Translations under genes and position numbers: made by a program
NCBI GenBank assembly: GCA_031291675.1
Contig: JARLIO010000075.1
Location: forward strand, 1 to 64,000
DNA from: Azospirillaceae bacterium
Lineage (GTDB): Bacteria; Pseudomonadota; Alphaproteobacteria; Azospirillales; Azospirillaceae
Direction of reading: 5' to 3'
Length of the DNA stretch: 64,000 nt
Part shown: positions 4,555 through 58,200 of the stretch, in pieces
How positions within the stretch are numbered: the stretch's first letter is position 1
Layout: each line of letters starts with the position of its first letter
Notes under the pieces: model-generated
Seen by the model: the letters and a program-made list of their open reading frames with translations, nothing else
Databases searched by the model: none
Told to the model about the DNA's origin: nothing

Positions 4555-5445
4555 ATGGATCTGCGAGCGCTGCGCGCCTTTGTCGAAGTGGTTCGTCACG
4601 GCGGTTTCTCCGCCGCGGCACGGGTGATCCACACGACGCAACCAACGATCAGCAAGGCGATCAAACAGCTTGAGGAGGAGCTGGGCGCTCCGCTGCTTGA
4701 CCGTCTCGGTCACCGTGTCCAGATGACCGCGGTTGGTGAGGTGGTGTACCGCCGCGCCATCGCGATGTTGAGCGAGCGCGAAACCTTGATTGGCGAGCTG
4801 GCGGAACTGCGCGGCCTCAGCCGGGGCCGGCTTCGGTTGGGCCTGCCGCAATTTGGCAGCAGCTTCCTGTTCGCCCCGTTGTTTGCCGAATACCGGATCC
4901 GTCATCCGGGGATCGACATCGAGCTGATCGAGGACGGCAGCCGGCGGCTCGAGGAAGCGGTCCTGGCCGGCGAGATCGAGCTGGCGGTCTCATTACTTCC
5001 CGTGCCGATCCCGTTCGCCTGGCAGGAGGTTCGCAACGAACCGATGGTCGCTTTGTTGCCCGACGGCCATCCGCTGGCCGGACGGGACAAGGTCAAACTG
5101 GTCGAGCTTGCCGACAGTCCGCTGATCCTGTTCGAAAGCGGCTTTGCCCTCAATGAGCTGATCGAGGACGCCTGTCGGCGCCGCGGTTTCTCCCCCCGCG
5201 AGGCGGCGCGCAGCGGCCAGGCCGATTTCATCGTCGCGCTGGTCGCCGCCGGCCTGGGCGTCGCCCTGCTGCCCCGCCTGACCGCGGAGCAGCGGCACCT
5301 AGCCTCGGTCCATATGGCGCAGCTTGATGACGACGATCTGCGCTGGCACGCGGTCCTGATCTGGCGCCGCGACGGCTACCTGTCGCCGGCGGCACGGGCT
5401 TGGCTGGCACTCGCCGCCGAGGGGACGCCCGGCCAGGCCCGGTGA
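4555..5445 (+). CDS. LysR-family transcriptional regulator (CidR-like)
   Basis: The N-terminal winged HTH (residues 1-60) has the LysR pattern F-V-E-V-V-R-H-G-G-F-S-A-A-A and T-Q-P-T-I-S-K-A-I-K-Q-L-E. A periplasmic-binding-protein-like effector domain follows to residue ~290. The length of 296 aa is standard. It is divergent from lrgAB, which parallels the arrangement of CidR with cidAB in other bacteria, so regulation of the pair is the natural inference. The effector is unknown. The 3' end overlaps the 3' end of the convergent GT41 gene by about 70 bases. Confidence 0.92.
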   Translation: MDLRALRAFVEVVRHGGFSAAARVIHTTQPTISKAIKQLEEELGAPLLDRLGHRVQMTAVGEVVYRRAIAMLSERETLIGELAELRGLSRGRLRLGLPQFGSSFLFAPLFAEYRIRHPGIDIELIEDGSRRLEEAVLAGEIELAVSLLPVPIPFAWQEVRNEPMVALLPDGHPLAGRDKVKLVELADSPLILFESGFALNELIEDACRRRGFSPREAARSGQADFIVALVAAGLGVALLPRLTAEQRHLASVHMAQLDDDDLRWHAVLIWRRDGYLSPAARAWLALAAEGTPGQAR

Positions 5446-7424
5446 TCGGGATTGATCGGCCGAAAAGCATCACGGCGGGCCAGGCGTTCCTGCCACCAGC
5501 CGCGATAATCGGCGATCGTCTGCACCTCGACCTCGTCATGATGCACCTGCCTGCCCACCTCCAGATAAACATCCAGATTGGACAGATCGGGGCGTGGCAG
5601 GGTGCCGGCCTTGAAATTACGCCACATTGTCGCGTAGAGCGCCTCAAGGTGGCGCACCAGACGTGGCATGTCGAACAGGACGCAGTCCTCGCGTCCGGCG
5701 ACAAGCCGGTCGCGAAGCGGCCGGATCGCTTCACGGTCGTTGCCCAGCGCGATGGCCCGGGAGACATAGTCGGCCGCGGTGTCGCACACCATCTCCGGGA
5801 CACCGGCAGCACGCACCAGACTGCCGCACACGCGGGAGGCGAAGGAGCGACCATTGAGCGTCAGCACCGGCACGCCCATCCACAACGCGTCGGAGGCCGT
5901 GGTGTGTGCCCCATAGGGACAAGTGTCGAGGAACAAATCGGCCAGCACATAACGGGCAAGATGATAGGGGTTGGCCAGTTTCTCGGCAAAGACCAGTCGC
6001 TCCGGTGCGATGCCGCGTTCCGCCGCCAGGCGCTTCAGCCGGTCGTTGGTGGCCTCGGTATTGCTGAGCAGCCAGAGCACGCTCCCCGGAACCCCGTTGA
6101 GGATCATCAACCAGCGCTCGAAGGTAAACCGGGTGATCTTGTGCGCCCCGTTGAAACAGCAAAATACGGTGTCCGTCTCCGGAAGCCCGGCCTCGCTGCG
6201 TGTCGGACGGCGCGACGCCACGATCCGCTTGCGGTTGTTGGGCTGATAACAAGGCAGCTGCAGTACCGTCTCGGCGTAATACATCTCGTCGCCGGGCGGG
6301 ATGATCCAGTCGTCGGCGATGATGTAATGGTGATAGGGACTGGCCATCGTCCCGGGAAAACCGAGCCAGTTGACGATGACCGGGGCCGGCCGATAGGCGA
6401 TCACCTTGGTCCGCGCCTCTCTGGTATAACCGTTCAGATCGATGAGGATTTGAATCTGATCATCGGCAATGCGCCGGGCTGCGGCGGCATCGTCGAGTTC
6501 GGCGATCGAGGTCCAGTGGTCGACGGTCGCCCTGAATTGGTCATGCAGCGCATCCTGGGCCACCGGACCGCAATAATAGGCAAAGACCTCGACCGCATTG
6601 CGATCATGCAGGCCGAAGACCTCAGCCATCAGATGGCCCACGGCATGTTCGCGCAGATCGGACGAAAGATAGCCGACCCGCAGCGGCGCCATTCGTTGTG
6701 ATGCCTGAGGCCAGGCCGACAGGGCGGTGGCGGGCGTCCCGACGTCGGTCATGTTGTAGTTCCAGGCCACGGCCAACTGGAACAACGGATCATCGGTGTA
6801 GGCGGCAACCGACAAGGGGGACATGCCGATCATCAGACGATCCAGCGGTACCCGCTCCAATGGCGCCGCGACCGGCCACTCGCATTGCCGTTGGCGCAGC
6901 GCGAGGTAGTGCTGAACGACTTCGCGCTGATGGCAATCGATCTCGAGGCTCTGGCGCAGCATGTCCTCGGCGGATTCGTCCTGGCCGGCGGCTTCCAGGG
7001 TTCGGGCGATCTGATTGAGCGCCGTGGTCTTGTGGGTGATCGCGGCGCCGTTGACCGCCGCCAGCCGGCCGAGAACCGCGGACCACTGCACGATCGCCGG
7101 GCCGACCGTTCCCAGGCGCTCGTAAATCCGTCCAAGATTGATATGGGCCGGCATGAAATCGGGATTGAGCGCAATCGCACGGTCGAGCTGTTCGCGCGCC
7201 AGCGTGAGATTTCCGGAATCCGAGAGGATGACCGAGTAGTTGAACAGCACGGCATACAGAAGCGGGTTTTCCTGGTTGTGCTGGATCCAGGTCTCATAGA
7301 GCGCCGCCACCGAATTTGACTGGCCGCTTTGCTTCATGGTTTCGGCGGTATGGATGAGATCGATGACGCTGAAATCACGCGCCATCGATCGGATCAAAGC
7401 CGGCGCCAGGATATCACCCACCAT
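5376..7424 (-). CDS. TPR domain GT41-family (O-GlcNAc-transferase/SPINDLY-like) glycosyltransferase
   Basis: This is a predicted cytoplasmic nucleotide-sugar-dependent protein glycosyltransferase. TPR-like helices occupy about residues 30-175 (the clearest unit ends N-P-D-F-M-P-A-H-I-N-L-G-R-I-Y). The catalytic region tracks human OGT closely: R249-V-G-Y-L-S-S-D-L-R-E-H260, L-I-D-L-N-G-Y-T, R-P-A-P-V-I-V-N-W-L-G-F-P-G-T, C-C-F-N-G-A-H-K-I, and L-F-L-D-T-C-P-Y-G-A-H507-T-T-A-S-D. The terminal L-E-A-L-Y-A-T-M-W also matches. The length of 682 aa fits. It lies 159 bases downstream of the giant Thr/Ser-rich repeat gene on the same strand, so that protein is the obvious candidate acceptor. Donor sugar and acceptor are inferred, not shown. 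A long C-terminal extension after the OGT-like end has no assigned role. Confidence 0.93.
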   Translation of the reverse strand: MVGDILAPALIRSMARDFSVIDLIHTAETMKQSGQSNSVAALYETWIQHNQENPLLYAVLFNYSVILSDSGNLTLAREQLDRAIALNPDFMPAHINLGRIYERLGTVGPAIVQWSAVLGRLAAVNGAAITHKTTALNQIARTLEAAGQDESAEDMLRQSLEIDCHQREVVQHYLALRQRQCEWPVAAPLERVPLDRLMIGMSPLSVAAYTDDPLFQLAVAWNYNMTDVGTPATALSAWPQASQRMAPLRVGYLSSDLREHAVGHLMAEVFGLHDRNAVEVFAYYCGPVAQDALHDQFRATVDHWTSIAELDDAAAARRIADDQIQILIDLNGYTREARTKVIAYRPAPVIVNWLGFPGTMASPYHHYIIADDWIIPPGDEMYYAETVLQLPCYQPNNRKRIVASRRPTRSEAGLPETDTVFCCFNGAHKITRFTFERWLMILNGVPGSVLWLLSNTEATNDRLKRLAAERGIAPERLVFAEKLANPYHLARYVLADLFLDTCPYGAHTTASDALWMGVPVLTLNGRSFASRVCGSLVRAAGVPEMVCDTAADYVSRAIALGNDREAIRPLRDRLVAGREDCVLFDMPRLVRHLEALYATMWRNFKAGTLPRPDLSNLDVYLEVGRQVHHDEVEVQTIADYRGWWQERLARRDAFRPINPDHRAWPGVPSAASASQARAAGDR

Positions 7425-7583: not shown

Positions 7584-10500
7584 TCAGGCCAGAGCCTGAT
7601 CCATGGCCGCGACCTGCGCGGTCGACATCGCGGCGATTTCCGTCGTGGTCAAGGCGCCGAGCTGCGTTGCATTCAAGGCTTCGATCTCGGTTTCCAGCAG
7701 ATAGGAAATGGTCGTCGTCGAAAGACCCGCGACCGTGGTTGTCGTCAAGGCGCTGAGCTGAACCGCTGAAAAGGCGTCAATCGTCGTTCGGTCCAGGGTG
7801 TTGAGCTGTGTCGCACTCAACGCGGCGACCTGGGTTGAGGACAAGGCCGCGAACTGCGTCGTCGTCAATCCTTCCAGGTCAGCCGCGCTCAGATTGCCCA
7901 TCTGTGTTGTCGTCAGGGCTGCGACCTGCGTCGTCGTCAACGCATCAAGTTGGGTCGTGGTCAAAGAGCGCAGCTGCGCACGCACCAGCCCGGCCAGCTG
8001 CGTCACCGACATCGCGGTCAGATCCGTCGTCGTCATGTCGCCGATGGCCGTCGTCGTCAACTCGCCGATCTGCGTGGGCGATAGTCCGGCCATCTGCGTC
8101 AAGGTCATCGTCGTGATCTGGGCATCGGTCAACCCGGCGATCCCGCTGCTCGACAAAGCACCGATGTCACTTGAGGTCAGCACGGCAAACTGGGTCGTGG
8201 TCAACGCCGCCACCTGCGCCGACGACAGACCACTGATCTCTGTCGTCGACAAGAGCCCGACCTGGCTTGTGGTCAAGCTGGCGATCTGGCTCGTCGACAG
8301 ACCGGTGATCCCCGTGGCCGACAGGCTGCTGAATTGGGTTGTCGTCAACGCGCTGATCTCGGTCGTGGTCAGGCCCATGACCGCGGTCGGCGACAGGGCC
8401 GCCATTTCCGTTGCCGTCAGTGCCGCCATTTGATTGGTGGTCAGCGCCTCGACCTGGGTCGCGGTCAAGCCCGACACCCCCGAGGTTGACAGCTCGGCGA
8501 CCTGCGTTGTCGTCAGGGCCGCCAGCTGCGTCGTGCTCAGGGTCGCGACCTGGGTCGTGGTCAACCCGCCGAGTTCCGTCGCCGACAGGGTCGCAATCTG
8601 GGTCGTGGTCAAGCCCGCGATCTGCGTCGTGGTCAGCGCTGCCATTCCCGTCGACGACAGGGCCGCAAGTTGGGTCGTGGTCAGCGCCGCCAGTTCGGTG
8701 GTCGTCAGCGCCGCGATCGTGGTGCTCGACAAGGCGGCCATTTCGGTCGCGGTGATCGCCGAGAGTTGCGCCGTCGTCAGGGACACGATCTGGCTGTTGC
8801 TCAGACCGGCGACCCCGGTCGTCGACAACGCGGCGATCTGCGTTGTCGCCAGCGCCGCCAGTTGGGTCGTGGTCAGGGTCGCGACCTGCGTCGATGTCAG
8901 GCCGCTGACTTCGGTCGTCGTCAAGGTCGAGAGCTGCGACACCGACAAGCCGGCGATCTGGGTCGTGGTCAAGGCGCCGACCTGCGTCGATGTCAGGGCC
9001 GCCAGCTGTTTTGTCGTCAGCGCCGCCAATTCCGTCGTGGTCAGGCTGGCAAGCGCGGTCGTCGACAGGGCCGCGACTTCGGTCGTGGTCAAAGCTCCCC
9101 ATTGCGCCGTCGACAACGCGCCGACCTCGGTAGAGGTCATGCCGCCGACTTGCGTGGTGGTCAGCGCCGCGATCTGAGTTGTGGTCAGCGCCGCCAGTTG
9201 CGTCGTGGTCAGCTCCCCGATCTCGGTGCTGGTCAGGCCCTGAAGCTGTGTCGTGGTCAAGCTGGCGATAACGGTCGCGCTCAGCGCCGCGACGCCGGTT
9301 GCGCTCAAGCCGCTCAACTCGGTCGCCGTCAGCGCGGCCACCTGGGTACTGGACATCGCCGCGAGGCCGGTCGCCGTGATCCCCGCCGCCGCGGTCACCG
9401 ACAAGGCGGCCAGTTGGGTCGCCGTCAGGGCGGTAATCTGGGTCGAGGTCAAGGCCGCGACCTGGGTCGAGGTCAAGCCGCCGATTTCCGTCGTGGTCAA
9501 GGTGCCGAGCTGGGTCGTCGTCAGCGCCGCCATCTGGGTGGTGGACAGTCCGCCAACCTGCGTGGCGGTCAGGGACGTCAACTGCGTCGTGCTGAGTTCA
9601 CCCAGTTCCGTCGCGGTCAGACCGGCGACCGCGGTGGTTGACAGCGCCCCGATCTCGGTTGAGCTGAGACCGCTCAGCAGCGTCGTCGACAGCGCCGCAA
9701 TCTGGGTCGATGTCAGGCCCCCCAGCGCCGTGGTCGTCAGCGCGGCGAGCTGCTTTGTGCTCATGGCGTTGATCTGGGTGACACTCAGCGCCGCGACCTC
9801 GGTGCTGCTCAGACCGCTGAGCTGGGTCGTGGTCAGCGATGCCACCTGGGTCGGCGTCAACGCCCCAAGCTGGGTCGTGTCGAGTGCCCCCAGCGCGGTC
9901 GCGGTCAACGCGTCGACCTGCGTCGTCGACATCGCCGCGATCTCGGTCGTGGTCAGGCCGCTGATCGCTGTCGTGCTCAAGGCTGCGGTCTGAGTGGTCG
10001 TCAGCGCGCTCAGCTGCGTCGTCGAGAGCGCCGCGGCCTGGGTGTCCGAAAGACCGCTGATCTCGGTCGCCGTCAACGCCGCGAGTTGCGTCGTTGTCAG
10101 GGCCGCGACCTGGGTCGTGGTCAGAGCGCCGATCTGGGTCCAGGTCAAGGCCGCCAGCTGCCTTGTCGTCAGCACCGCCAGATCCGTGGTGCTCAGACTG
10201 GCAATCGCCGTGGTCGCCAGGGCCGCGACTTGGGTCGTCGTCAGGGCTGCCATCTGGCTTGAGGTCAGGTCACCGAGTTCGGTTCCGGTCAGGCCGCTGA
10301 TCTCGGTCGGGGTTAACGCCGAAATCTGTGTCGTGGTCAGCGCCGCCAGTTGCGTCGTCGTCAGGTCGCCAATCTGCGTGCTGGTCAGCCCCTGGAGCTG
10401 TGTCGTCGTCAGATCCGCGATATCGGTTGTCGACAGGGACTCGATCTGGGTGGTCGCCAGGCCACTCAACGCGGTCGACGTCAGGGCCGCCAACTGCGTC

Positions 10501-13500
10501 GCCGACAACGAGGCGATGGCGCTCGTGGTCAACCCACTGACCGCCGTCGCCGACAAAGCCGCGACCTGCGTACTGGACAGCATATCGAGCTGCGTCGTGC
10601 TCAAGGCCGCAACCTGCGCTGACACCAGACCGCCGATCTCCGTCGTCGTCAAGGCCGCGACCTGGGTTGTGGTCAAGGCCGCGATCTGGGTCGCGTTCAG
10701 GGTTCCGATCTGTGTCGAGGTCAGCGCGGTCAACTGCTTGGTGGTCAGGGCCGCAACCTCGGTCGCGGTCAGCCCGCTGATCCCGATCGTCGACAGCGCG
10801 GCGAGCTGGGTCGTGGTCATCGCGGCGAGTTGCGTCGTCGTCAGGGCGGCGACCTGGGTGTCGACCAGCGTATTGACATCGGCGGTGTTCAGCGCCGCCA
10901 ATTGTGTCGTCGACAGGGTCGCGATTTCGGTCGTGGTCAACCCGCTGGCGCCGGTCGTTGACAGGGCGGCGACCTGGTTTGTCGACAGGGTGGCAAGCTG
11001 GGCTGGGCTCAGCGCGGCGACCTGGGTGTCGGTCAGGGCCGCGATCCCGGTCGTGGTCACGGCCGCCAGTTGCGTCGTCGTCAGCGCGGCAATCTGGGCC
11101 GTCGTCAGCGTGCCGACTTGCTTCGCGCTCAAGGCCGCGACCTGGGTCGTGGTCAGAGCCACCAGTTCGGTCGTACCCAGCGTATTGATCACCGTTGTCG
11201 TCAAGGCGGCGATCTGGGTCGTGGTCAGGGCATCGAGCTGCGTGGTCGTCAGCGCGTTGGCCTCGCTGCTGGTCAAGCCTTGGATCTGGGTCGCGGTCAA
11301 CGTGGCGAGCTGGGTCGTACTCAGCGCGCCGATCTGGGTCGTGGCGAGTTCGCCAATCTCGGTGCTGGTCAAGCCCTGAAGCTGGGTCGTCGTCAACGCG
11401 GCAACCTCGGTCGTCGTCAGGGCCGAAATCTGGGTGTAGGTCAGACCACTCAATTCGGTCGAGCTCAAGGACGCGAACTGCGTCGTGGTCAGCGCCGCAA
11501 GTTCAGCGGTCGTCAGACCACTGGCCGCCGTCGCCGTCAACGCACCGAATTGGGTGCCTGACAAAGCGCTGATCTGGGTCGCCGACAGCGCCGCAACCTG
11601 GGTCGAGGTCAGACCGGCGATTTCGGTCGTCGTCAAGGCCGAGAGCTGGGTCGTGGTCAGGCTCGCGGTCTGGGTCGCGCTGAGCGAACCCAGCTGCGTC
11701 GCCGTCAGCGCCGCGATCTGCGTGCTGGTCAGGGCGGTGACGTCGGTCGTGGTCAATCCGCTGAGCGCCGCGGTCGGCAAGGCCGCGACCTGCGTTGTGG
11801 TCATTGCGGCGAGTTGGGTCGTCGTCAGAACCGCGGCCTCGGTTGCCGTCAGACCTTGGATCTGCGTCGCGGTCAGCGCCGCAAGCTGGGTTGCCGTCAA
11901 CGCCCCGATCTGGGTCGTCGTCAGTTCGCCGATCTGGCTACTGGTCAGACCCCGGAGCAGCGTCGTCGACAGGCCGCTGATCTCGGTCGCGGTCAGCGCC
12001 GTCAACGCCGCGTCATTGAGGCCGCCGAGCGCCGTCGCCGTCAGCGCCGAAACCTGCGTTTGCGACAGCGCCGCCATTTGGGTTTCGTTCAAAGCCGCCG
12101 CCTGGGTCGCTGTCAGCGCCGCAAGCTGGGTTGTCGTCAGCGCCGCAAGCTCGGTCGTCGTCAGCGCCGCAATGTCGGTGCTGGGCAAGGCCGCAATCTG
12201 CGTGCTGCTCAGCACCCCGAGTTGCGTCGTCGTCAACGCCTCAACCGCGGTTGAGGTCATGCCGCGAACCTGGGTCGCGCTCAGAACGCCGAGTTGTGCC
12301 GTCGTCAGCGCCCCGATCTGGGTTACGGTCAACGCGCCGATCTCGGTGCTGGTCAGCCCGCGAACCTGCGTTGTCGACAGCGACGCGATTTGGCTCGCGG
12401 AAAGGTCGTTGATCTGCGTCGTCGTCAGGGCCCCGATTTCTGTTGCCGTCAGCACCGCGAGCTGGGATGTCGTCAGCGCCCCAAGCTGCGTGTCGGTCAA
12501 GTTGCTGACCTGCGTCGTCGTCAGCGCGGCAATCTGCTGGGTCGTCAAGCCTGCGATCTGCGTCACGGTCAGACTGGCGATATCCGTGCTGGTCAACGCC
12601 GCAACCTGGGTGGTGCTCAGCGCCGCAAGCTGAGTAGCATTCAGCGCGTCCAGGGCCGTCGACGTCAGGGCCGCGACCTGGGTCGCGGTCAATCCGGCGC
12701 GCTGCACCGTCGTCAGGGTCGCCAAGTCGGTCCCGGACAAACCGGCCATCACGGTCGTGGTCAGGGCGCCGATCTGGCCCGATGACAAGGTCGCGAGCTG
12801 CGTGTCGCTCAGGGCCGCGACTTCGGTCGCGGTCAGGCCTTTGACCTGGGTCGTCGTCAGCGTCGCAAGCTGGGTGGTGCTCAGCACGGCGATCTGGGCG
12901 GTGGTCAAGGCGCCCACTTCGGTCGCGGTCAGCCCCTTGACCTGTGTCGTGGTCAGGGACGCGATCTGCGAGGTCTGCAGTGCCGCCACCTGCGCCGTCG
13001 TCAAGGCCGCGATCTGCGTCGTCGTCAAGGCGTTCAGTTCGCTCCCGGTCAACGCGCCGATCTGATCGTTGGTCAGGCTCTTGATCTGGGTCGTGGTCAA
13101 GGCGCGCAGCGCCGTCGTGGTCATCGTGGTCAGATCAGTGCTTGAAAGATCACTGATCGCGCTGGTGCTGAGACCCGCGACCTGCGTCGTCGTCAGGGCG
13201 GTCAATTCCGTCGTGGTCAGGGCGTTGGCCGCGGTTGTCGTCAGCGCCGCGATTTGAGCCGCGGTCAATCCCGATAGCTGTGTCGTCGTCAGAGCCACGA
13301 TCTGCGTATCGGCCAACCCGGTGATCGCCGTGGTCGACAGGCGTGCAATCTGCTTGCTGGTCAGGCCGCCGATCTGGGTCAAGGACAGCTGACTGACTTC
13401 GGTCGAGGTCATGCCCGCGACCGCGGTCGTGGTCAGGGCCGCCAGTTGCGTCGTGCTCAACGCGGCGACCTGATCATTGCTCAGCGCGGCGATCTCAGTG

Positions 13501-16500
13501 CTGGTCAGGCCGGCAACCTGGGTTGTCGTCAGCGCCGCAATCTGGGACGTCGCGAGTTGCCCCACTTGTGACGTGGTCAGCGCCCCGATTTCGGTCGAGG
13601 TCAGCGCACTCAAGGCCGTGCCGGTCAACGCGGCAAGTTGAACGCCGCTCAGCCCGGTGATCTCGGTCGAGGTCAAAGCCCCAAGTTGGGTGGTCGTCAA
13701 CGTGTTGATCTGTGTGGTCGTCAAACTCCCGACTTGAGTGCTGGTCAATCCCCGCAGCTGCGTCGTCGTCAACGCGGCCACTTCCGTGGCCGACAGGCCG
13801 CTGACCGCCGTCGTCGTCAACGCGGCCATCTGGGTCGCGGTCAGCGCGTGGAGCTGGGTCGTCGTCAGGGTGGCAATCTGGCTGTCCGACAGGCTGGCGA
13901 GCGCCGTGGTCGAGACCGCCGCGATTTCGGTTGCCGTCAAAGCCGCCAGTTCCGTAGCGGTCATGTCGCCAACCTGGGTGCTGGTCAGGCCGCGGATCTG
14001 CGTCGTGGTCAGCGCGGCAAGCTGCGTCGTGGCCAGGGACGCCACCTGGCTGTCACTGAGTGCGGCGATCGCCGTGCTGGTCAGGCCGCGGAGCTGCGTC
14101 GCCGTCAAGGCGCTCAGATCCGTCGTCGTCAGACTGGCCATCTCGGTCGAGGTCAGGGCCGAAAGCTGGGTCGAGCTCAGGGCCGCGAGTTCAGTCGTGG
14201 TCAACGAGGCGATCTGGTCACCGGTCAGCCCCGCCAACTGGGTCTTGGTCAAGGCCGAGAGCTGGCTGGTGCTGAGCGTGCTGAGATCGGTCGCGGTCAG
14301 CACGTCCAGCGACGTGCTGGTCAAAGCGGCAATCTGGGTTGTCGTCAACGCCGCCAATTCGGTGGCGGTCAGCGAATCGATCGCGGTTGTCGACAGCGCC
14401 GCCATCTGGGTCGCCGTCAGACCGGCCAACTGGCTTGTGGTCAGCGCGACGACTTGTGTCGTCACCAAGCCACTGATCCCGGTCGTCGACAATTGCCCGA
14501 TCTGGGTCCGCGACAGCGCGGACAGTTGGGTCAGACTCAGCGACGCGACGTCGGTCGAGGTCAAGGCCCCGAGCACGGTCGTGGTCAGCCCGCTCATCTC
14601 GGTTGCGGTCAGCGCGCTCAATTGGCCGGTGGACAGGGCTCCGACCTCGGTCGAGGTCAGACCCGCCAGCTGGGTTGTCGTCAGCGCCGCGAGCTGGGTC
14701 GCCGTCAATGACCCGATTTGCGTTGTCGTCAGCGAAGCGATCTCGGTCGAGGTCAGCGCGCCCCACTGGGTCGTCGTCAGGCCGGCCAACTGGTCCGCGC
14801 TCAGCCCCGGGACCTGGGTCGCGGTCAAAGAGGCCAGCTGTCTGGTTGTCAACGTATTGAGCTGGGTCGTGGTCAGTCCGGCGATCTCGGTGCTGGTCAG
14901 CCCCTTCAACTGCGTCGTCGTCAGCGCCGTCAGCTCGGTCGCCGGCAGGGCATTGAGCGCGGTCGTCGTCAAGGCCGCGATCTGGGTTGTCCGCAACCCC
15001 GCAAGCTGTGTCGTCGAAAGGGATACCAACTGGGTATCGGCCAGGCCGCTGATCGCCGTGGTCGACAGCGCCGACACCTGGGTCGTGGTCAGCGCATCGA
15101 GCTGCGTGTTGCTCAGACCCGCGATCTGTGTGTCGGACAAACCCGAAATGCCGGTCGACGACAGCGCGGCAAGCTGCGCTGTCGTCAGGGTCGCGAGTTG
15201 GACGGTCGACAGCGCACCGACTTCCGTTTTCGTCAGTCCCTTGAGCTGCGTCGTCGTCAGCTCGGCAATTTCGGTGACGGTCAGGGCGCCGACCTGGGTC
15301 GTCGTCAGCGCGGCAAGCTGGGTCGATGTCAGCGAGCCGATCTCGGTCGCGGTCAGGGATGCAATCTGATCGGCGGGAATCCCGGCAATCTGCGTCGTCG
15401 TCAGCGCGGCCAGATCGCTCGTGCTCAAGGCACTGAGATCCGCCGCGGTCAACGCAGCCATCGCCGTCGTGGTCAGCGCCCGAAGTTGCGTCGTCGACAA
15501 CGCGTCGAGTTGAGTCGCGGACAGCGCGTCGACCGCCGTTGTGGTCAGGGCCGCGACCTGCGTCGTGGTCAAAGCCAAAATCTGGGTCGTGGTCAGGGCG
15601 GCCACCTGGGTGCCGGCCAGCCCGGCCAGCGCCGCCCTGGGGATCGCCGCGATCTGGGTTGCGCTCAGCGCGCCGAGCTGGGTCGTGCTCAGTTCCGAGA
15701 CCTCGGTCGCGGTCAAACTGGCGATCGCGGTCGTGGTCAGCGCGGCGATCTGCGTTGTCGCCAACGCCGCCAACTGGTCGGCACTGAGCGCGGCAATCCC
15801 GGTGGCGGCCAGCCCCCTCACCTGTGTCGTGGTCAGGGCGGCAAGTTGGGAAACCGACAAGTCACCGATTTGCGTTGTGCTCAGGGCCGTGATTTCGGTG
15901 GGTGTGAGCGCGGCCAACTGGGTCGCCGACAACGCGGCAATCTGGTCCGTGCTCAGCCCCCGCACCTGCGTCGTCGTCAACGCGGCAAACCGGGTGGTCG
16001 TCAGACTGTTGATCTGCGTCGTCGACAAACTGCCGATGTCGACACTGTTCATGGCTGCGAACTGGGTCGCCGTCAACGACGTCAACTCAGTCACGGTCAG
16101 GGCACCCGCCGCCGTCGTCGTCAAGGACGCGATCTGCGTGGTGGTCAACCCGGCAAGCTGGGTCGTCGTCAGCGCCGCCATCTGGGTCGCGGACAAGCCC
16201 GCCAAGGCCGTGGTCCGGATCGCGGCGACCTGGGTCGAGGTCAGGGCGCCGAGCTGGTCACTGGTCAAGGACGCCGTTTCGGTCGCGGTCAGACCGCCGA
16301 CGGCCGTCTGTGTCAGCGCGGCGATCTGCGTCGTCGCCAACGCCGCCATCTGCTCGGCACTGAGCGCCGCAACCTCGGTGGCAACCAGGCCGCTCACCTG
16401 TGTCGTGGTCAGCGCCGCGACCTGGGCGGTTGACAATTCGCCGATTTGCGTCGTACTCAGCGCGGCGATCCCGGTGCTGGTCAGGGCGCCGAGCTGGGTG

Positions 16501-17870
16501 GCCGTCAGCGCCGCGAGCTGATCACCGGTCAAGGCCCGAAGCTGCGCGCCCGACAGCGCCGCGAACTGGGTCGTCGTCAGGCTGTTGACCTGCGTCGTCG
16601 TCAGACTGGCAATGGCGGTGCTGGTCAGGCCCGCGAGCTGGGTCGTCGTCAGGGCCGTCAATTCGGTCGCGGTCAAGGCTGAAGCGGCCGTCGTCGTCAA
16701 GGACGCGATCTGGCTCTTGGTCAGCCCGGCAAGCTGGGTCGTGGTCAGCGAGGCCACTTGCGTCTGGGACAATCCCGCCAGCGCCGTGCCCTGGATCGCG
16801 GCGATCGCGGTCGCGCTCAAGGCGCCCAACTGATCACTGGTCAGGGACGCGATCTCGCTGGTGGTGAAGCCGCTGATCGCTGTCTGTGTCAGGGCGGCGA
16901 TTTGCGTCGCGCTCAACGCCGCCAGTTGATCGGTGCCAAGAGCCGCGGCTTCGGTCCGGGTCAGGCCGCTGAGTTGGGTCGTGGTCAGCGAGGCGATCTG
17001 GGTGGTCGACAATTCACCGACCTGCGTTGACGTCAGGCTCGCCACCCCGGTCGCCGTCAGCGCCGCAACTTGTGTCGGGCTCAGGGCCGCCAGCTGATCG
17101 CCGGTCAAGGCCTTGAGCTGCGTCGCGGTCAGCGCGGCAAACTGGGTTGCCGTCAGGTCATTGAGCTGGGTCGTCGTCAGGGCGGCGATGTCAGCCGCGT
17201 TGAAACCCGTGATCTGCGTCGTCGTCAACGCGGTCAAGTCGGTCGCGGTCAAGGCGGTGACCGCCGTGGTCGTCAACGCGGCAATCTGGGTCCGCGACAG
17301 CCCCGTGGCCTGTGTCGTCGTCATCGACGCGACCTGCGTTGCCGACAACTGGCGGAGCTGCGTCGCGGTCAAGGCGCCAATACTGGTCGTGGTCAGGCCG
17401 CTCAGTTGGCTCGTCGTCAAGGACGCGATTTCTGTCGTGCTGAGGCCGGCAATCTGGGTTGCGGACAGTGCCCCCAACTGCGAGGACGACAACGCAGCAA
17501 ACTGATCCGACGTCAAGGCGGCGAGTTCCGTCGTGGTCATCGCCTGCAGTTGCGTCGTTGTCAGGGCCGCGATCTCCGCGGTCCCGATCGCATCGACCTG
17601 GCCGGCATTCAACACGGCAATCTGGGCGGCGCTGAAGGAGAACTGGTTTGTCGACAAGGCGGCAATCTGGGTTGTTTCCAGGGCCGCAACCTGCTTCGTC
17701 GACAATTCCGAAATCTGGGTCGCACTCAGTTCCGTGATTTCCGTCGTCGTCAGCGCCTCGATCTGCGTCGTCGTCATGGACGCAAAATCGGTCGAGGTCA
17801 AATCAGCAACCTGTGTGGCCGTCAGGTTGGCGATTTGCAGGGCGCTATAGGACGAAATGCTTGAGATCAC
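7584..17870 (-). CDS. Giant Thr/Ser-rich octapeptide-repeat protein
   Basis: This single uninterrupted frame of 3,428 codons is built from about 425 copies of an eight-residue unit, consensus A-[AGS]-L-[TS]-[TSA]-T-[QE]-[ILV]. The unit begins within the first 20 residues and runs almost to the C-terminus (ending A-A-M-D-Q-A-L-A). About three residues in eight are Thr or Ser. I find no cysteine, and Trp, Lys and Arg are rare. No signal peptide, transmembrane segment, RTX or autotransporter domain is visible. The start is GTG 17870: an in-frame TGA lies five codons upstream, and GAGG sits 10 bases before it. The T-x-x-[QE] tetrad matches the helix N-capping box, so each unit could be a short helix in a solenoid; this is inference. 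The GT41 gene downstream may glycosylate it. Function unknown. Confidence 0.9.
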   Translation of the reverse strand: MISSISSYSALQIANLTATQVADLTSTDFASMTTTQIEALTTTEITELSATQISELSTKQVAALETTQIAALSTNQFSFSAAQIAVLNAGQVDAIGTAEIAALTTTQLQAMTTTELAALTSDQFAALSSSQLGALSATQIAGLSTTEIASLTTSQLSGLTTTSIGALTATQLRQLSATQVASMTTTQATGLSRTQIAALTTTAVTALTATDLTALTTTQITGFNAADIAALTTTQLNDLTATQFAALTATQLKALTGDQLAALSPTQVAALTATGVASLTSTQVGELSTTQIASLTTTQLSGLTRTEAAALGTDQLAALSATQIAALTQTAISGFTTSEIASLTSDQLGALSATAIAAIQGTALAGLSQTQVASLTTTQLAGLTKSQIASLTTTAASALTATELTALTTTQLAGLTSTAIASLTTTQVNSLTTTQFAALSGAQLRALTGDQLAALTATQLGALTSTGIAALSTTQIGELSTAQVAALTTTQVSGLVATEVAALSAEQMAALATTQIAALTQTAVGGLTATETASLTSDQLGALTSTQVAAIRTTALAGLSATQMAALTTTQLAGLTTTQIASLTTTAAGALTVTELTSLTATQFAAMNSVDIGSLSTTQINSLTTTRFAALTTTQVRGLSTDQIAALSATQLAALTPTEITALSTTQIGDLSVSQLAALTTTQVRGLAATGIAALSADQLAALATTQIAALTTTAIASLTATEVSELSTTQLGALSATQIAAIPRAALAGLAGTQVAALTTTQILALTTTQVAALTTTAVDALSATQLDALSTTQLRALTTTAMAALTAADLSALSTSDLAALTTTQIAGIPADQIASLTATEIGSLTSTQLAALTTTQVGALTVTEIAELTTTQLKGLTKTEVGALSTVQLATLTTAQLAALSSTGISGLSDTQIAGLSNTQLDALTTTQVSALSTTAISGLADTQLVSLSTTQLAGLRTTQIAALTTTALNALPATELTALTTTQLKGLTSTEIAGLTTTQLNTLTTRQLASLTATQVPGLSADQLAGLTTTQWGALTSTEIASLTTTQIGSLTATQLAALTTTQLAGLTSTEVGALSTGQLSALTATEMSGLTTTVLGALTSTDVASLSLTQLSALSRTQIGQLSTTGISGLVTTQVVALTTSQLAGLTATQMAALSTTAIDSLTATELAALTTTQIAALTSTSLDVLTATDLSTLSTSQLSALTKTQLAGLTGDQIASLTTTELAALSSTQLSALTSTEMASLTTTDLSALTATQLRGLTSTAIAALSDSQVASLATTQLAALTTTQIRGLTSTQVGDMTATELAALTATEIAAVSTTALASLSDSQIATLTTTQLHALTATQMAALTTTAVSGLSATEVAALTTTQLRGLTSTQVGSLTTTQINTLTTTQLGALTSTEITGLSGVQLAALTGTALSALTSTEIGALTTSQVGQLATSQIAALTTTQVAGLTSTEIAALSNDQVAALSTTQLAALTTTAVAGMTSTEVSQLSLTQIGGLTSKQIARLSTTAITGLADTQIVALTTTQLSGLTAAQIAALTTTAANALTTTELTALTTTQVAGLSTSAISDLSSTDLTTMTTTALRALTTTQIKSLTNDQIGALTGSELNALTTTQIAALTTAQVAALQTSQIASLTTTQVKGLTATEVGALTTAQIAVLSTTQLATLTTTQVKGLTATEVAALSDTQLATLSSGQIGALTTTVMAGLSGTDLATLTTVQRAGLTATQVAALTSTALDALNATQLAALSTTQVAALTSTDIASLTVTQIAGLTTQQIAALTTTQVSNLTDTQLGALTTSQLAVLTATEIGALTTTQINDLSASQIASLSTTQVRGLTSTEIGALTVTQIGALTTAQLGVLSATQVRGMTSTAVEALTTTQLGVLSSTQIAALPSTDIAALTTTELAALTTTQLAALTATQAAALNETQMAALSQTQVSALTATALGGLNDAALTALTATEISGLSTTLLRGLTSSQIGELTTTQIGALTATQLAALTATQIQGLTATEAAVLTTTQLAAMTTTQVAALPTAALSGLTTTDVTALTSTQIAALTATQLGSLSATQTASLTTTQLSALTTTEIAGLTSTQVAALSATQISALSGTQFGALTATAASGLTTAELAALTTTQFASLSSTELSGLTYTQISALTTTEVAALTTTQLQGLTSTEIGELATTQIGALSTTQLATLTATQIQGLTSSEANALTTTQLDALTTTQIAALTTTVINTLGTTELVALTTTQVAALSAKQVGTLTTAQIAALTTTQLAAVTTTGIAALTDTQVAALSPAQLATLSTNQVAALSTTGASGLTTTEIATLSTTQLAALNTADVNTLVDTQVAALTTTQLAAMTTTQLAALSTIGISGLTATEVAALTTKQLTALTSTQIGTLNATQIAALTTTQVAALTTTEIGGLVSAQVAALSTTQLDMLSSTQVAALSATAVSGLTTSAIASLSATQLAALTSTALSGLATTQIESLSTTDIADLTTTQLQGLTSTQIGDLTTTQLAALTTTQISALTPTEISGLTGTELGDLTSSQMAALTTTQVAALATTAIASLSTTDLAVLTTRQLAALTWTQIGALTTTQVAALTTTQLAALTATEISGLSDTQAAALSTTQLSALTTTQTAALSTTAISGLTTTEIAAMSTTQVDALTATALGALDTTQLGALTPTQVASLTTTQLSGLSSTEVAALSVTQINAMSTKQLAALTTTALGGLTSTQIAALSTTLLSGLSSTEIGALSTTAVAGLTATELGELSTTQLTSLTATQVGGLSTTQMAALTTTQLGTLTTTEIGGLTSTQVAALTSTQITALTATQLAALSVTAAAGITATGLAAMSSTQVAALTATELSGLSATGVAALSATVIASLTTTQLQGLTSTEIGELTTTQLAALTTTQIAALTTTQVGGMTSTEVGALSTAQWGALTTTEVAALSTTALASLTTTELAALTTKQLAALTSTQVGALTTTQIAGLSVSQLSTLTTTEVSGLTSTQVATLTTTQLAALATTQIAALSTTGVAGLSNSQIVSLTTAQLSAITATEMAALSSTTIAALTTTELAALTTTQLAALSSTGMAALTTTQIAGLTTTQIATLSATELGGLTTTQVATLSTTQLAALTTTQVAELSTSGVSGLTATQVEALTTNQMAALTATEMAALSPTAVMGLTTTEISALTTTQFSSLSATGITGLSTSQIASLTTSQVGLLSTTEISGLSSAQVAALTTTQFAVLTSSDIGALSSSGIAGLTDAQITTMTLTQMAGLSPTQIGELTTTAIGDMTTTDLTAMSVTQLAGLVRAQLRSLTTTQLDALTTTQVAALTTTQMGNLSAADLEGLTTTQFAALSSTQVAALSATQLNTLDRTTIDAFSAVQLSALTTTTVAGLSTTTISYLLETEIEALNATQLGALTTTEIAAMSTAQVAAMDQALA
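7584..17870 (-). repeat. 24-bp tandem repeat array encoding octapeptides
   Basis: Coding period is 24 bases for over 10 kb, with frequent synonymous differences between units (GTCGTCAG, GTCGTGGTCA, GTTGTCGTCAA and so on on the plus strand). Occasional out-of-register units exist, for example a 7-residue unit (S-F-S-A-A-Q-I) near residue 77. The repetition is thus conserved mainly at protein level. Confidence 0.9.
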
Positions 17871-21573: not shown

Positions 21574-24192
21574 TTAACGCCTTTCAAGCACACGCTTAAT
21601 AAGTTTCGGAATTTTTGAGACCGAATTCAGGTGAAACCCGAAGCGGAATCTCTTGGACAAAGCCTCCAGCCTGGCTGTGCGTTCGGCCAATTCTCTGCGG
21701 GTCGCAATCAGTTCATCGACGTGATCGATCAGTGCCGCCCGGGCCGCGTTGGCCTCGTCGGTTCGGCTCAGCAGATCGGCCCGGGTGGCGTCCAGATCCG
21801 CGGTACGCTCGATCAGCGCCGCCCGCGCCACGTTGGCCTCGTCGGTTCGGCTTAGCAGATCGGCCCGCGTCGCTTCCAGAGCGGCACGGGTGGCTTCCAG
21901 GTCCGCGTTGCGCTCGATCAGTGTCACCCGCGCCACGTTGGCCTCCTCGGTGCGTGCCACCAGAGCGGCCCGCGTCGCTTCAAGATCCGCGGTACGCTCG
22001 ACCAGCGCCGCCCGCGCCACGTTGGCCTCATCGGTTCGGGACACCAGAGCGGCCCGCGTCGCTTCAAGATCCGCGGTACGCTCGAGCAGCGCCGCCCGCG
22101 CTGTGTTTGCCTCATCGGTTCGACCGACCAGATCAACCCGGGTCGCTTCCAGGTCGGCGGTGAGTTCGGTTAGCGCCGCCCGCGCCGCGTCCGCCTCGTC
22201 GGTTCGGGACACCAGCACGGCCCGCGTTGCTTCCAGATCGGCACGGGTGGCTTCCAGATCCGCGGTGCGCTCAACCAGCGCCGCCCGCGCCACGTTCGCC
22301 TCGTCGGTTCGACCGACCAGATCAACCCGGGTTGCTTCCAGATCCGCGGTGAGTTCGGTTAGCGCCGCTCGCGCCGCGTCCGCCTCGTCGGTTCGGGACA
22401 CCAGATCGGCCCGCGTCGCTTCCAGATCCGCGGTGCGCTCGATCAGCGCCGCCCGCGCCGCGTTGGCCTCCTCGGTGCGTGCCACCAGATCGGCCCGCGT
22501 CGCTTCCAGGTCGGCCGTGCGCTCGACCAGCGCCGCCCGCGCCGCGTTGGCCTCCTCGGTGCGTGCCACCAGATCGGCCCGCGTCGCTTCCAGGTCCGCG
22601 GTGCGCTCGACCAGCGCCGCCCGCGCCGCGTTGGCCTCCTCGGTGCGTGCCAGCAGATCGGCCCGCGTCGCTTCCAGATCCGCGGTACGCTCGACCAGCA
22701 CCGCCCGCGCCGCGTTGGCCTCGTCGGTGCGTGCCACCAGAGCGGCCCGCGTCGCTTCCAGATCCGCGGTGCGCTCGACCAGCACCGCCCGCGCCGCGTT
22801 GGCCTCCTCGGTGCGTGCCACCAGATCGGCCCGCGTCGCTTCCAGATCGGCCGTGCGCTCGACCAGCACCGCTTCACTCACCAGAGCATTACGGTCAAGC
22901 CCATTTCGGCTGCTGTATGGAATATGCGGATAAGCCGATCGAAGATAGCTTTTGAGCAACCGAAAAGGTGTATCGATCGGCGCAAAGAAATTTTCGTCGA
23001 TACCGACGGTTCGATACCGAGCTATCCACGCAACAAAACGCTGTTCCAGCCAAGTTGAATCATATAAATGTTGCTTGTCTCCGATAAAAAAGAAATGCGA
23101 CAGAAGATAATAGAGAATATTGTCTTTTGATTGATAGGATTTACTGTCAAGACAGTCCCCGAGATCATGGATATTTTTTATATCCGCAATCACGTTGATA
23201 TGGCTGTCACCCAAAGCGCAAATCGGCTTTTCCCACAAAAGACCCTGGAAACCAAGTGTTGAGGAAACGGTGGCGACTGCATCGACATGCTGCATCAAGA
23301 ACTGCGACGAGTATTGATAGTCACCGAATTTTTCAAGATAAATATAATTCGGATAGGTTTTTCTAAGATATGTATTGACTTCTGGAGTCAGGATGCTGCT
23401 CCAATCCGAATGTTCGGTTACGACCACACCGATATCGGGACGGATATTGTCAAGAACATGGCAGAGCATATCCCATTGACTGGCAAACGAGGTGTTTCCC
23501 TCAAAGGCCACGTAATCAGAAACTTGCAGCGGCAGCAGCAGCAGGTAGCGAAACGGTTTGTCCTGGATCAGCTCAGAGCGGCTGAACGGATTTTTCGCGA
23601 TCAACAGCCGATCCAGAAATTTCTTTCGAAAAAAGTGTAGAAATTTGCGTCCATCCTCTGAAATTTCGCGATTAGTCAACGCTGCAGCATATTTCACTAA
23701 AAAACTATGTTTAAAAGAGCCGCAGGGGTCCAGGAACCATGAGCTCGGATAGGGGGCGCGCGAAAACCCGCTCACCTCCATGGTTAAGACAAGAGCATCA
23801 GGAAACAGTTCCGATAAAAAAGGAACAGAAGCCATAAAAGTAATGATAATATCAGGAATAAAGCCATCCACTTTTTGCCTTATTATCCCCTTCATTTTCT
23901 CCATTTCTTCAAATGTTGCGTCACCACGATACCAACTTAACGTCGCCGTAAGATAATCAGGAAAAATATCGCGCAATTCACGCTGCGATATTATCGAACA
24001 TTGCGTATTTTCATGAGATGTTATCCGATTGACAGCACCGCTCTGCGCGTCCCCAATCAGAAAAAAACACCTGTTTTTCGAAAACCCTCGTATTGTTTGA
24101 TATAATGGAAATATTACATTATCTATCCAAATATTTTTCCATTCTGGTTTGTTTTTTTCGATCCAGGGCTCTATATAGAAAAGAATATTCAT
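21574..24192 (-). CDS. Capsule-type glycosyltransferase-like protein fused to a 28-residue-repeat coiled coil
   Basis: The N-terminal ~430 residues resemble capsule polysaccharide transferases of the KpsC/KpsS or related kind: a Y-L-L-L-L-P-L-Q-V-S-D strand, then I-G-V-V-V-T-E-H, and A-V-A-T-V-S-S-T-L-G-F-Q-G-L-L-W-E-K-P-I-C-A-L-G-D. The assignment is by pattern and is moderate. From about residue 440 to 835 the protein is a long coiled coil of about 14 repeats of 28 residues (L-V-E-R-T-A-D-L-E-A-T-R-A-D-L-V-A-R-T-E-, then E-A-N-A-A-R-A-A). It ends in a basic tail (K-L-I-K-R-V-L-E-R-R). The DNA changes abruptly from AT-rich (glycosyltransferase part) to very GC-rich (coiled coil), suggesting fusion of an acquired gene with a host module. 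ATG 24192 begins M-N-I-L-F-Y-I. Role inferred: surface glycan synthesis. Confidence 0.75.
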   Translation of the reverse strand: MNILFYIEPWIEKNKPEWKNIWIDNVIFPLYQTIRGFSKNRCFFLIGDAQSGAVNRITSHENTQCSIISQRELRDIFPDYLTATLSWYRGDATFEEMEKMKGIIRQKVDGFIPDIIITFMASVPFLSELFPDALVLTMEVSGFSRAPYPSSWFLDPCGSFKHSFLVKYAAALTNREISEDGRKFLHFFRKKFLDRLLIAKNPFSRSELIQDKPFRYLLLLPLQVSDYVAFEGNTSFASQWDMLCHVLDNIRPDIGVVVTEHSDWSSILTPEVNTYLRKTYPNYIYLEKFGDYQYSSQFLMQHVDAVATVSSTLGFQGLLWEKPICALGDSHINVIADIKNIHDLGDCLDSKSYQSKDNILYYLLSHFFFIGDKQHLYDSTWLEQRFVAWIARYRTVGIDENFFAPIDTPFRLLKSYLRSAYPHIPYSSRNGLDRNALVSEAVLVERTADLEATRADLVARTEEANAARAVLVERTADLEATRAALVARTDEANAARAVLVERTADLEATRADLLARTEEANAARAALVERTADLEATRADLVARTEEANAARAALVERTADLEATRADLVARTEEANAARAALIERTADLEATRADLVSRTDEADAARAALTELTADLEATRVDLVGRTDEANVARAALVERTADLEATRADLEATRAVLVSRTDEADAARAALTELTADLEATRVDLVGRTDEANTARAALLERTADLEATRAALVSRTDEANVARAALVERTADLEATRAALVARTEEANVARVTLIERNADLEATRAALEATRADLLSRTDEANVARAALIERTADLDATRADLLSRTDEANAARAALIDHVDELIATRRELAERTARLEALSKRFRFGFHLNSVSKIPKLIKRVLERR
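21690..22880 (-). repeat. 84-bp tandem repeats encoding 28-residue coiled-coil units
   Basis: About 14 units of 84 bases (four heptads each) are arrayed head to tail. Two units carry an extra 21 bases (one heptad, L-E-A-T-R-A-D/V type), near 22220-22260 and 21860-21900. Units are much more alike at DNA level than those of the giant octapeptide gene, which implies recent expansion or ongoing recombination. Confidence 0.88.
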
Positions 24193-55292: not shown

Positions 55293-58200
55293 TCACGCGG
55301 CCCGGATCGTGTCCGCAGCCAGGGCCAACCGGGCCAGGGCGGGCAGAGACTTTGAATGGGTTCTTTTCATGATTGAAGCGCGGTGGTTCTCGACCGTCCG
55401 TTGACTGATGCCGAGATCGGCCGCGATGTTTTTGCTGGGCTGACCGGCCAGAACCATTTCCATGATCTGGCGCTGCCGCGGCGTCAGGCTGGCGACATAG
55501 GTGGCGGCCGTTTCATGCCAGCTGGACAGTTTGGAACCATCCTGTGCATGTTCGAGGGCCCGCGCGATCGTGGTCAGAAGCTCATCGACGCCAACAGGCT
55601 TTTCGATGAAGTCGAAAGCGCCCGCCTTCATCGCCTGAACCGCCATCGTGACATCGCCATTGCCGGTGATCATGATCGATGGCAATGGATGGCCGGTAGC
55701 CTGGAGATGTTGCAGCAGTTCCAGCCCGCTCATTCCGGGCAGAACGGCATCGATCAGCAGGCAGGCTTCCTGCCCGGGACGATAGAAGCCCAGGAAATCC
55801 TCACAAGAGGCAAAATCCTCAACCAGCCTGCCATCATCCTCGAGCACGCTGCGCAGCGCGCCGCGAACCTGGGCGTCGTCATCGACGACGATAATCACCG
55901 GCGCCCGCAACCCGGTAGCGGATTCGATGTGACGGGGCGCCGCCGGCGCAGGAGCCATCGCCGGTGCTGGTGCCACCGCGGGCATGCCGGCGGAAGGACC
56001 GAGAAGATCCCGGACCACTTGCGTCAGCTCCGCCAGCTTGACCGGCTTGTTGAGCTGGACACAATCCTCACGGGCGATAGTGCGTAGCGTACGGGTCGTG
56101 ATGTCGCCGGTCAGAATAATGACCGGGATCGGACGATGGAGTGTCTCGCGCAATTTGACCGTCAGCTGCAACCCGTCCATCTCATTGGGTAGATTGTAAT
56201 CGGCCAGCATCAGATCGGGCCGGATACCCCCGCGCGTCACCAGATCCAAGGCGGCGACGCCATCGGCTGCGGTCACCGTTCGATGCCCCTCGTCCTTGAG
56301 AAGAAGATCGAGAAGGTCGCGCACCTCCGGGTCGTCCTCGACAATCAGGATTCCGCCGGCCCGGTGCCCCACCGCGGCAACCTTATCCGGGAGCGCGCGC
56401 TCCGGCGGTGGCGCCCCGTCAGCAGAGGGCCGCTTGATCTCGATCATGAACACCGAACCGGCACCAAGCTTCGAGCGGACCCGAACCGGATGGCCCAGCA
56501 GGTTGCCCAGACGCTGCACGATCGAGAGGCCCAGGCCCAGGCCCAGGCTCTGCTGACGCGCCGCATTGTCGAGCTGATGATACTCCTCGAAGATAGCGTT
56601 GAGCTCGCCGGCCGGGATGCCGACACCGCTATCCCACACCTCAACCCTCAGCGTATCGCCACGACGACGGCATCCCAGCAGCACTTTGCCGCTTTTGGTG
56701 TATTTCAGGGCGTTGGACAGCAGATTGCGGATCATCTGCTCGAGCAGCCGCGGATCACTTTGGATCGAAAGACCGCACGAGACGACATGGAGCGCCAAAT
56801 GCTGATCCCGGGCATGATACGCAAATTCATCGCGCATGCGATGGAGCAAATCATTGATCGGAAAGCTGACGATTTCCGGGTGAACCGTACCGGCCTCGAT
56901 CTGGTTGATGTCGAGCAGCTTGTTCAGCATCGCCGACATGGCGTTCAACGTCTCGTCGAGTCGCTCGACCAGCTTGCGTGGCTTTTCGCCTTCCACGCTG
57001 CGTGCCAACAGCCCCTGAAGCAGGGCAAGCGTTTGCAACGGCTGGCGGAGATCGTGGCTCGCCGCGGCGAGGAAGCGTGATTTCGCCATCGTCGCCGACT
57101 GCGCCTGCCGTTTGGCGGCCTCCAGCGCATCGGCGACATGCCGGCGTTCGGTGATGTCGGCAAAGGTCATGACGACGCCCTCGACGCCGCCATCCTGGGT
57201 GCGGTAAGGCATGATGCGGCGATTGTACCAGGCGCCGCTGCGTGCCTCGATTTCCCGCTCGATCGGGGCCAGGGTCTGCAACACCGTTCTGGCATCAGCC
57301 AGAAGCACACTATCAACCGCCAGTGACGTCAGGTCGGCCAACGGCCGCCCGACATCGCTGCTGATCACGCTGAACAACAGCGTTGTTGCCGGGGTAAAGA
57401 AGCGGATTCTGAGGTTGACATCGAGAAAAATCGTGGCAACATCCGTGCTATAGAGCACATTCTGCAAATCATTGGCGGTCGTACGCTGCCGATCCAGAGT
57501 TTCATGGAGTTGCGTATTGAGCGATGTCAGTTCTTCATTAAGCGACTGCAGCTCTTCTTTTGACGTCAACAGCTCTTCATTTGTCGATTGACATTCTTCA
57601 TTGACCGACATCGCCTCTTCATTGATCGCCTTCTGTTCCTCGCTGGAAACCTCCAGATTGTGAATCGCCTCGCGCAATTCCATTCGCGTCGTATCCAGTT
57701 CGCGCTCCAGCTCGGCGATCCGCGGCAGGTCATGCGGGGCGATCGGCATCTCGGATCCGGATTCGGACTGCGGCAGCGGCTCATCGACGAAGCTGATCAG
57801 CAACAGCGCCTCGCCGTCGCCCGTGACAGGCTGCACCGTGATGCGGCACGCCGCGTCGTCACCGTCACCGGATCGGGCAACGATGACGGCAACCGGAATC
57901 CGCTCCTGCGCCGCCCGCATGATGGCCGCCCGAAGCCGGGTCCGGAGGCGCGGCGCCGCGATCGCGAGCAGATCATGTGTCGGATGTCCCGGGGCCACGC
58001 GCAGATAGCGGTCGGTCGGTCCCAGCGAATAGAGACATTCCTGCTTGCCGTTGATCAGGACCGTCGCCGGGGCATAGGCCTCCATCACCAGCCGGCGGCA
58101 TAGATCCGCGTAAGCGGCCTCGCGCGACGGCGCCGGGCCATAGCCCAGGCGCAGCGGGATACGAAGTGCACTATCGCCGGGATTCCGCGACGAACCGGTA

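Follow-up and report, generated by a model that had tools for sequence, protein, structure and literature searches.

A single open frame in an Azospirillaceae genome was found to be AT-rich, then GC-rich and then AT-rich again, with a glycosyltransferase-like head, a long stalk of in-register heptad repeats and a short basic tail following one another along the same 872 codons. The explanation we favor, and to which we give an even chance, is an acquired glycosyltransferase with an internally grown stalk and a membrane-contacting tail that holds the head at a distance. Of its two steps, acquisition of the gene with internal expansion of its linker is probable, and service of the product as a stalk or spacer at a membrane is evenly balanced. 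The gene lies in a 64,000-nucleotide stretch of DNA (the whole of which is called the window below), and its parts are as follows.

21574-24192, minus strand: the whole gene, one open frame of 872 codons
22900-24192, minus strand: N-terminal glycosyltransferase-like domain (the head), residues 1-431, AT-rich with GC 0.426, matching PF05159
22870-22899, minus strand: linker between head and repeats, residues 432-441, which holds the first change point in GC-ending codons (codon 440)
21649-22869, minus strand: heptad-repeat stalk, residues 442-848, delimited by 84-base tandem repeats and heptad register and characterized by pN/pS between units
21577-21648, minus strand: C-terminal tail, residues 849-872, AT-rich, basic and amphipathic, with 13/26 GC-ending codons for codons 847-872

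We set aside an artifact of frame or assembly, as no stop codon occurs across the 872 codons of the gene and the head domain is single-copy in its own genome.

Composition, distribution and probable acquisition of the gene

Along the gene, GC content lies at 0.38–0.48 over most of the head and at 0.63–0.76 over the repeats. An earlier note on this DNA had placed a flip in base composition near 22900, inside one frame, and the data bear it out: codon 440 is the best single change point in the proportion of GC-ending codons (GC3), its log-likelihood ratio being 50.9 against at most 9.2 in 300 permutations. Codons ending in G or C make up 190/430 of the head and 319/405 of the repeats, agreeing with the AT-rich enzyme part and the GC-rich repeat part of that note. 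With amino acid composition accounted for by stratification, a codon of the repeats has 4.0 times the odds of ending in G or C that a codon of the head has, and the ratio ranges from 1.9 to 10.4 for 11 repeat units considered singly. The eight neighboring genes have an overall GC3 of 0.79, and codon adaptation to these genes, computed in segments along the gene, is 0.24–0.67 before the repeats and 0.56–0.88 in the segments covering codons 451–840, as foreign codon use in the enzyme part had led the note to expect. What did not hold is that the gene ends with its GC-rich part. GC falls again in the final 26 codons, which differ from the repeats in GC3 (Fisher p 0.0026), and among 2,102 windows of 26 codons in the eight neighboring genes only 0.1% are as AT-rich. 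A second GC3 change point falls at codon 858 with a gain of 7.7, the permutations having been run for codon 440 only.

The head family is sparse and patchily spread. A search with the window sequence matched one of 59 genomes, that of the gene itself. A six-sequence profile had matches at E 1e-3 in 16 of the 385 class genomes searched; three of these matches were strong with E below 1e-40 (the gene's own genome, G414 and G074), and the remaining 13 had E between 2.7e-6 and 8.3e-4. The same profile matched 2 of 398 genomes in a sample of the phylum at 1e-8 (the gene's own genome and G762). With a nine-sequence profile, three of 82 genomes of the same bacterial family matched at 1e-8, namely the gene's own, G799 with a protein 34% identical to this one and G817 with a distant protein, and three of 144 genomes around G414 matched (G414, G074 and G831). 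Among 72,556 plasmid records, six matched the head. Scans of species genomes confirmed none of 93 candidate stretches in one case and one of 107 in another, the confirmed stretch belonging to Candidatus Caenarcanum, which the tree tool places in Melainabacteria.

Taken together, the patchy distribution (3/82 genomes in the family and 16/385 in the class) and the foreign codon use point to lateral transfer of the gene, much as the earlier note had proposed. A phage origin was rejected, since none of 50,697 phage records matched the head and viral contigs, scanned twice, gave no confirmed match. Neither inverted repeats of at least 14 bases nor direct repeats spanning the gene were found in two flanking stretches, each searched alone, and no tRNA was found in the 64-kb window. 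A search for defense systems gave no PADLOC family match.

The head domain and its relatives

The capsule-type transferase domain that had been read from the translation is confirmed by a match of residues 217–330 to the Pfam family PF05159 (Capsule_synth), which scores 27.7 bits for the full protein and 29.3 bits for the domain alone against a cut-off of 20. Compared with known structures, a profile of nine homologues gave a local match to KpsC (E 0.0024), and its match to the head of WbbB was not significant (E about 0.5), the chains matched being those of WbbB by their entry code 8csb, so named in PMC12887879. In retaining Kdo transferases, the Asp of a QxxxD motif is the nucleophile and the Gln of the same motif binds the carboxylate of the donor Kdo, and the His of a (K/R)xHP motif is used as well (PMC9587256, PMC10148158 and PMC12887879); the placement of the general-base glutamate varies between the families (PMC12887879).

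We aligned these motifs in 12 rows, leaving out L007, L025, L039 and L040. The Gln of QxxxD corresponds to Gln223 of this gene and is Gln in 11 of the 12 rows. The Asp is absent, its column holding Tyr227 here, and across the alignment the column is Asp in one row only (the outgroup L035), Tyr or His in nine, Val in one and Ala in one. The second motif reads Thr-Glu-His-Ser, with His261 kept but neither the Lys/Arg nor the Pro; the column of this His contains His in seven rows and Tyr in five. The five rows with Tyr (L032, L002, L003, L005 and L006) are all proteins with a large second region. In the phosphate region the head has a serine pair, as do KpsC and KpsS. Judged by its sequence, the head probably sits near the Capsule_synth/Kdo-transferase superfamily that includes KpsC and WbbB; given Tyr227 in the catalytic column and the nonsignificant profile match to WbbB, we refrain from classing it as a retaining Kdo transferase, and the absence of the QxxxD Asp makes its donor and chemistry uncertain. 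A head family in which the Gln is kept and the Asp lost would be a useful case for the change of chemistry within the Kdo-transferase fold.

To describe the architectures, we read 11 homologues at full length; L007 (S. fredii NXT3), L025 (G762), L039 and L040 (G831) and the weak matches from the class search of 385 genomes were left out of this count. Five of the 11 (L002, L003, L005, L006 and L032) are 1,153–1,185 residues long and have a large second region after the head. This region is HAD-like above the Pfam cut-off in L003 and L006 and weakly so in L002 and L005, it has no HAD-like Pfam match at E 0.01 in L032, and a stretch of the type FD-F-DT was seen by eye to be common to all five translations. 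The others are diverse: L004 (501 residues) and L010 (426 residues) are stand-alone or nearly so, the G799 protein (873 residues) has a PhyH domain after a short stretch judged helical by eye, the G831 homologue (567 residues) carries another C-terminal part, and L035 (581 residues) is a canonical-looking GT99 relative. Contig 57 of G831 holds a further head-family copy (L039 and L040), apparently split between two frames, which may be a decayed duplicate. Comparison with homologues, which the earlier note had suggested for the coil, turned out negative, as none of the 11 has a long repeat stalk and the nearest relative has a short helix only.

This nearest relative found is the alphaproteobacterial homologue of G414 (L009), a protein of 493 residues that is 46% identical in the head and pairs with this gene at 99/99 support in the head-domain tree, a tree that resolves almost none of its other forks. 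Its order of parts, first the enzyme, then a short helix, then a basic tail, matches that of this gene. The earlier note had named orthologues with the same full-length architecture and uniform composition as evidence against its chimera; the G414 gene has the layout and an even composition, with GC3 of 0.63 and 0.60, but it has no long repeats. The two genes differ also in their surroundings. The neighbors of the G414 gene are a KdsA/NeuB-like synthase, a fusion of cytidylyltransferase and HAD phosphatase, a CBS-domain epimerase and an RraA-like protein, a neighborhood that likely represents a CMP-ulosonate pathway cluster and fits a CMP-activated acidic sugar.

Constraint and proposed growth of the repeat stalk

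The stalk consists of 13 in-register units of 28 residues, about 407 residues in all, a copy number that is given as assembled and could be wrong, the source being a draft assembly of 99 contigs. Two units carry an insertion, in both cases of exactly seven residues, and the first five units are 0.93–0.98 identical in DNA. Of 58 heptads, 45 have Leu and 13 have Ala at one register. Four residues further lies the second core position, which is Arg in 29 heptads and Thr in 26, and the predominance of these two residues (55/58) makes the helix core atypical and unusual for a stable coiled coil. That the stalk forms a coiled coil is a prediction only, and if wholly helical it would be up to about 60 nm long. 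Structure prediction gave a low mean pLDDT, 36.5 from one sequence and 40.9 from two.

Between the 13 units, pN/pS in the coding frame is 0.35, which argues against free drift of the repeats. A long antisense frame over the repeats (21749-22933, plus strand) is attributed to third positions that coincide between the strands and was set aside; pN/pS in that frame is 0.31, and a low value alone thus does not choose the strand or the frame. Still, with insertions of seven residues, Leu or Ala in 58 of 58 heptads and the pN/pS of the coding frame, the stalk is kept in heptad phase. These observations bear on the view that the array is a product of slippage during replication of GC-rich DNA, has little function and belongs to a gene that may be in decay. 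The near identity of the first units, the orphan position of the gene and the missing catalytic Asp would all agree with such a by-product, but the constraint between units, the lack of stop codons and the whole-heptad length of both insertions go against it; the Asp is missing in other homologues too, and its absence is therefore not decay of this copy. We consider a by-product of this kind very unlikely. Near-identical repeats in phase would nevertheless let the length of a ruler or spacer change by slippage. In the literature searched, no paper linked tandem repeats to coil rulers, the one match being apparently a coiled-coil modeling tool.

The earlier note had described the gene as a transferred enzyme fused to a local repeat module. 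A fusion at the end of the gene was rejected as the simplest reading. The codons after the repeats are AT-rich again, and G414 has the same order of parts with a short helix and no stalk, so the stalk more probably arose by expansion or insertion within the acquired gene. Two routes are compatible with this. A local coil may have replaced or seeded the linker and undergone amplification, or the linker itself may have expanded, its composition drifting to that of the host. The residues of the G414 helix are no more similar to the stalk than shuffled sequences are (142/500 shuffles reach the score), and its position only suggests that the stalk descends from that helix. The supposed local origin of the coil gained support from a Methyltransf_24 protein on contig 27 of the same genome (L027:70-1731), which ends in a stalk-like coil. 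Identity to the stalk is 56% over 66 residues (E 3.1e-10), and only one of 1,000 heptad-preserving shuffles of the contig 27 coil reaches the observed score of 158 (shuffle mean 117.8).

The same coil would allow a different role for the stalk, that of a scaffold for clustering or localization that binds enzymes such as the contig 27 methyltransferase through matching coils. The neighbor of the methyltransferase (L029:8563-10143) contains Glycos_transf_2 and RMNT_CmcI domains, which together with the similarity of the coils would suit a scaffold. The methyltransferase gene lies on another contig than this gene, however, the coil on contig 27 is only about 85 residues long, and its similarity may reflect a common coil idiom or gene conversion; a scaffold is, in our judgment, unlikely.

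Besides the gene's own genome, only G781 among the 82 genomes of the family had a stretch comparable to the stalk at 1e-10, with 21 candidates scored per genome. The G781 protein (L055:2482-4521, minus strand, the same gene as in L041) has an AT-rich N-terminal part, a GC-rich stalk and an AT-rich end, with GC3 of 0.36, 0.73 and 0.14, respectively, and its stalk is made of heptads of a 14-residue type. The N-terminal part, with a weak match to DUF6270 below the family cut-off, is unrelated to this gene, and the neighboring genes read, from their translations, like surface-sugar genes. By its sequence, the G781 gene is a parallel case of a GC-rich stalk inside an AT-rich gene in the same bacterial family. 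One could go further and suppose an evolvable stalk, in which slippage by an 84-base unit lengthens or shortens the array by whole heptads without a frame shift, and the host tunes the reach of an acquired enzyme and the length or position of a glycan. The gain of a stalk by two unrelated AT-rich proteins would then be a repeated adaptation of foreign surface-sugar genes, and the head a branch of the Kdo-transferase fold without the Asp nucleophile. This idea we regard as quite doubtful.

In the account that we prefer, of an acquired enzyme with an internally grown stalk, the starting point would be a laterally acquired glycosyltransferase of the Capsule_synth/Kdo-transferase superfamily, with an ancestor most likely laid out as the G414 protein: a catalytic head, a short helical linker and a basic amphipathic tail. 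Within a GC-rich host, the linker would have grown through in-phase tandem duplication of the 28-residue unit, or a local coil would have seeded it before duplication, the result in either case being the present stalk.

Genome context and comparison with coil-bearing enzymes

The most likely function of the stalk is that of a membrane-anchored stalk or spacer. The last 18 residues of the tail have a hydrophobic moment of 0.56 and a net charge of +5, and there is one proline within the tail, which is a possible membrane-binding segment. According to the preferred account, the tail would most likely touch the inner membrane, the stalk would hold the head off the membrane or cluster several heads, and the enzyme would act on a lipid-linked surface glycan at some distance from the membrane.

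Neighbors of the gene are a DnaJ, a kinase-like and a GST-like gene. Within the window, no glycan cluster surrounds the gene and no polymerase gene is nearby; the nearest sugar gene, a Glyco_transf_41 gene, is about 14 kb away. The gene's own genome, 97.71% complete, has no match to Wzt_C (PF14524) at E 1e-3 and five matches to ABC2_membrane on four contigs. Translations on three of the four contigs (without the two matches on contig 37) suggest that the ABC2 membrane loci there are not polysaccharide exporters. The cytidylyltransferase family PF02348 has matches on contigs 48 and 85. The first we take from its translation to be KdsB-like; the second presumably lies among genes of molybdenum-cofactor type, going by their translations, and with this match set aside the contig 48 gene is the one CMP-sugar candidate that PF02348 yields.

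Other genes of the window include one for a protein of 3,428 residues (7584-17870, minus strand), the first 623 residues of which, the part scanned, match the ALTTAQ repeat family PF20080. It is adjoined by a gene for a TPR protein with a Glyco_transf_41 domain (5376-7424, minus strand), and the large protein is possibly a glycosylated giant surface protein. A further gene (55293-59780, minus strand) encodes a single chain of 1,495 residues with CheB, CheR, PAS, histidine kinase, response regulator and LuxR-type DNA-binding domains.

Rulers made of coiled coils have been described in a few enterobacterial systems. As portrayed in PMC11231755, WbbB of Raoultella terrigena and Klebsiella O12 is a GT99 beta-Kdo chain terminator and a prototype of the coil-bearing terminators; WbdD of E. 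coli O9a and Klebsiella O3 has a methyltransferase-kinase head, a coil ruler and a C-terminal membrane-associated amphipathic segment; and serotype O4 has a terminator dependent on CMP-Kdo, ORF7, with a C-terminal coil on a separate polypeptide. All terminated examples, according to this paper, have a carbohydrate-binding module on the exporter Wzt.

By analogy, the present protein might be a true molecular ruler, with the head capping a membrane-bound polysaccharide and the length of the stalk setting the minimum chain before capping. Such a role would be in keeping with insertions that retain the heptad phase and with the order of head, coil and basic amphipathic tail described for WbdD, as well as with the coils of WbbB, there joined to a Kdo-transferase head, and of the O4 terminator (PMC11231755). 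It is at odds with the lack of a Wzt_C match in the genome, given the module on Wzt in the terminated examples of PMC11231755, with the apparently non-polysaccharide contexts of the ABC2 membrane loci, with the orphan position and with the missing catalytic Asp, and we think a ruler improbable. The role in glycan length advanced by the earlier note hence stays an analogy, set against an orphan gene, a genome with no Wzt_C match and an atypical helix core. WbdD, the example cited there, resembles this gene in layout but not in its head, and WbbB is the closer analogue.

In detail, this gene shares with WbbB an N-terminal head of Kdo-transferase type followed by a coil (PMC11231755), with the Gln for the donor carboxylate conserved. 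It differs in having none of the two polymerase modules described for WbbB (PMC11231755) and in the Tyr at the position of the catalytic Asp232 of WbbB (PMC9587256). With WbdD it has in common the succession of N-terminal catalytic head, coil and C-terminal amphipathic segment, whereas a Capsule_synth domain takes the place of the methyltransferase-kinase head (PMC11231755) and Wzt_C was not found in its genome. KpsC and KpsS (GT107 and relatives) are similar in PF05159, in the profile match to KpsC and in the serine pair; their QxxxD nucleophile and full (K/R)xHP motif are missing here. The order of parts and the heptad register agree with the terminators WbdD, WbbB and O4 ORF7, but the helix core is atypical and the protein would be a putative terminator only. 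The gene is real and unusual, and it is best filed with the known coil-bearing glycan enzymes.
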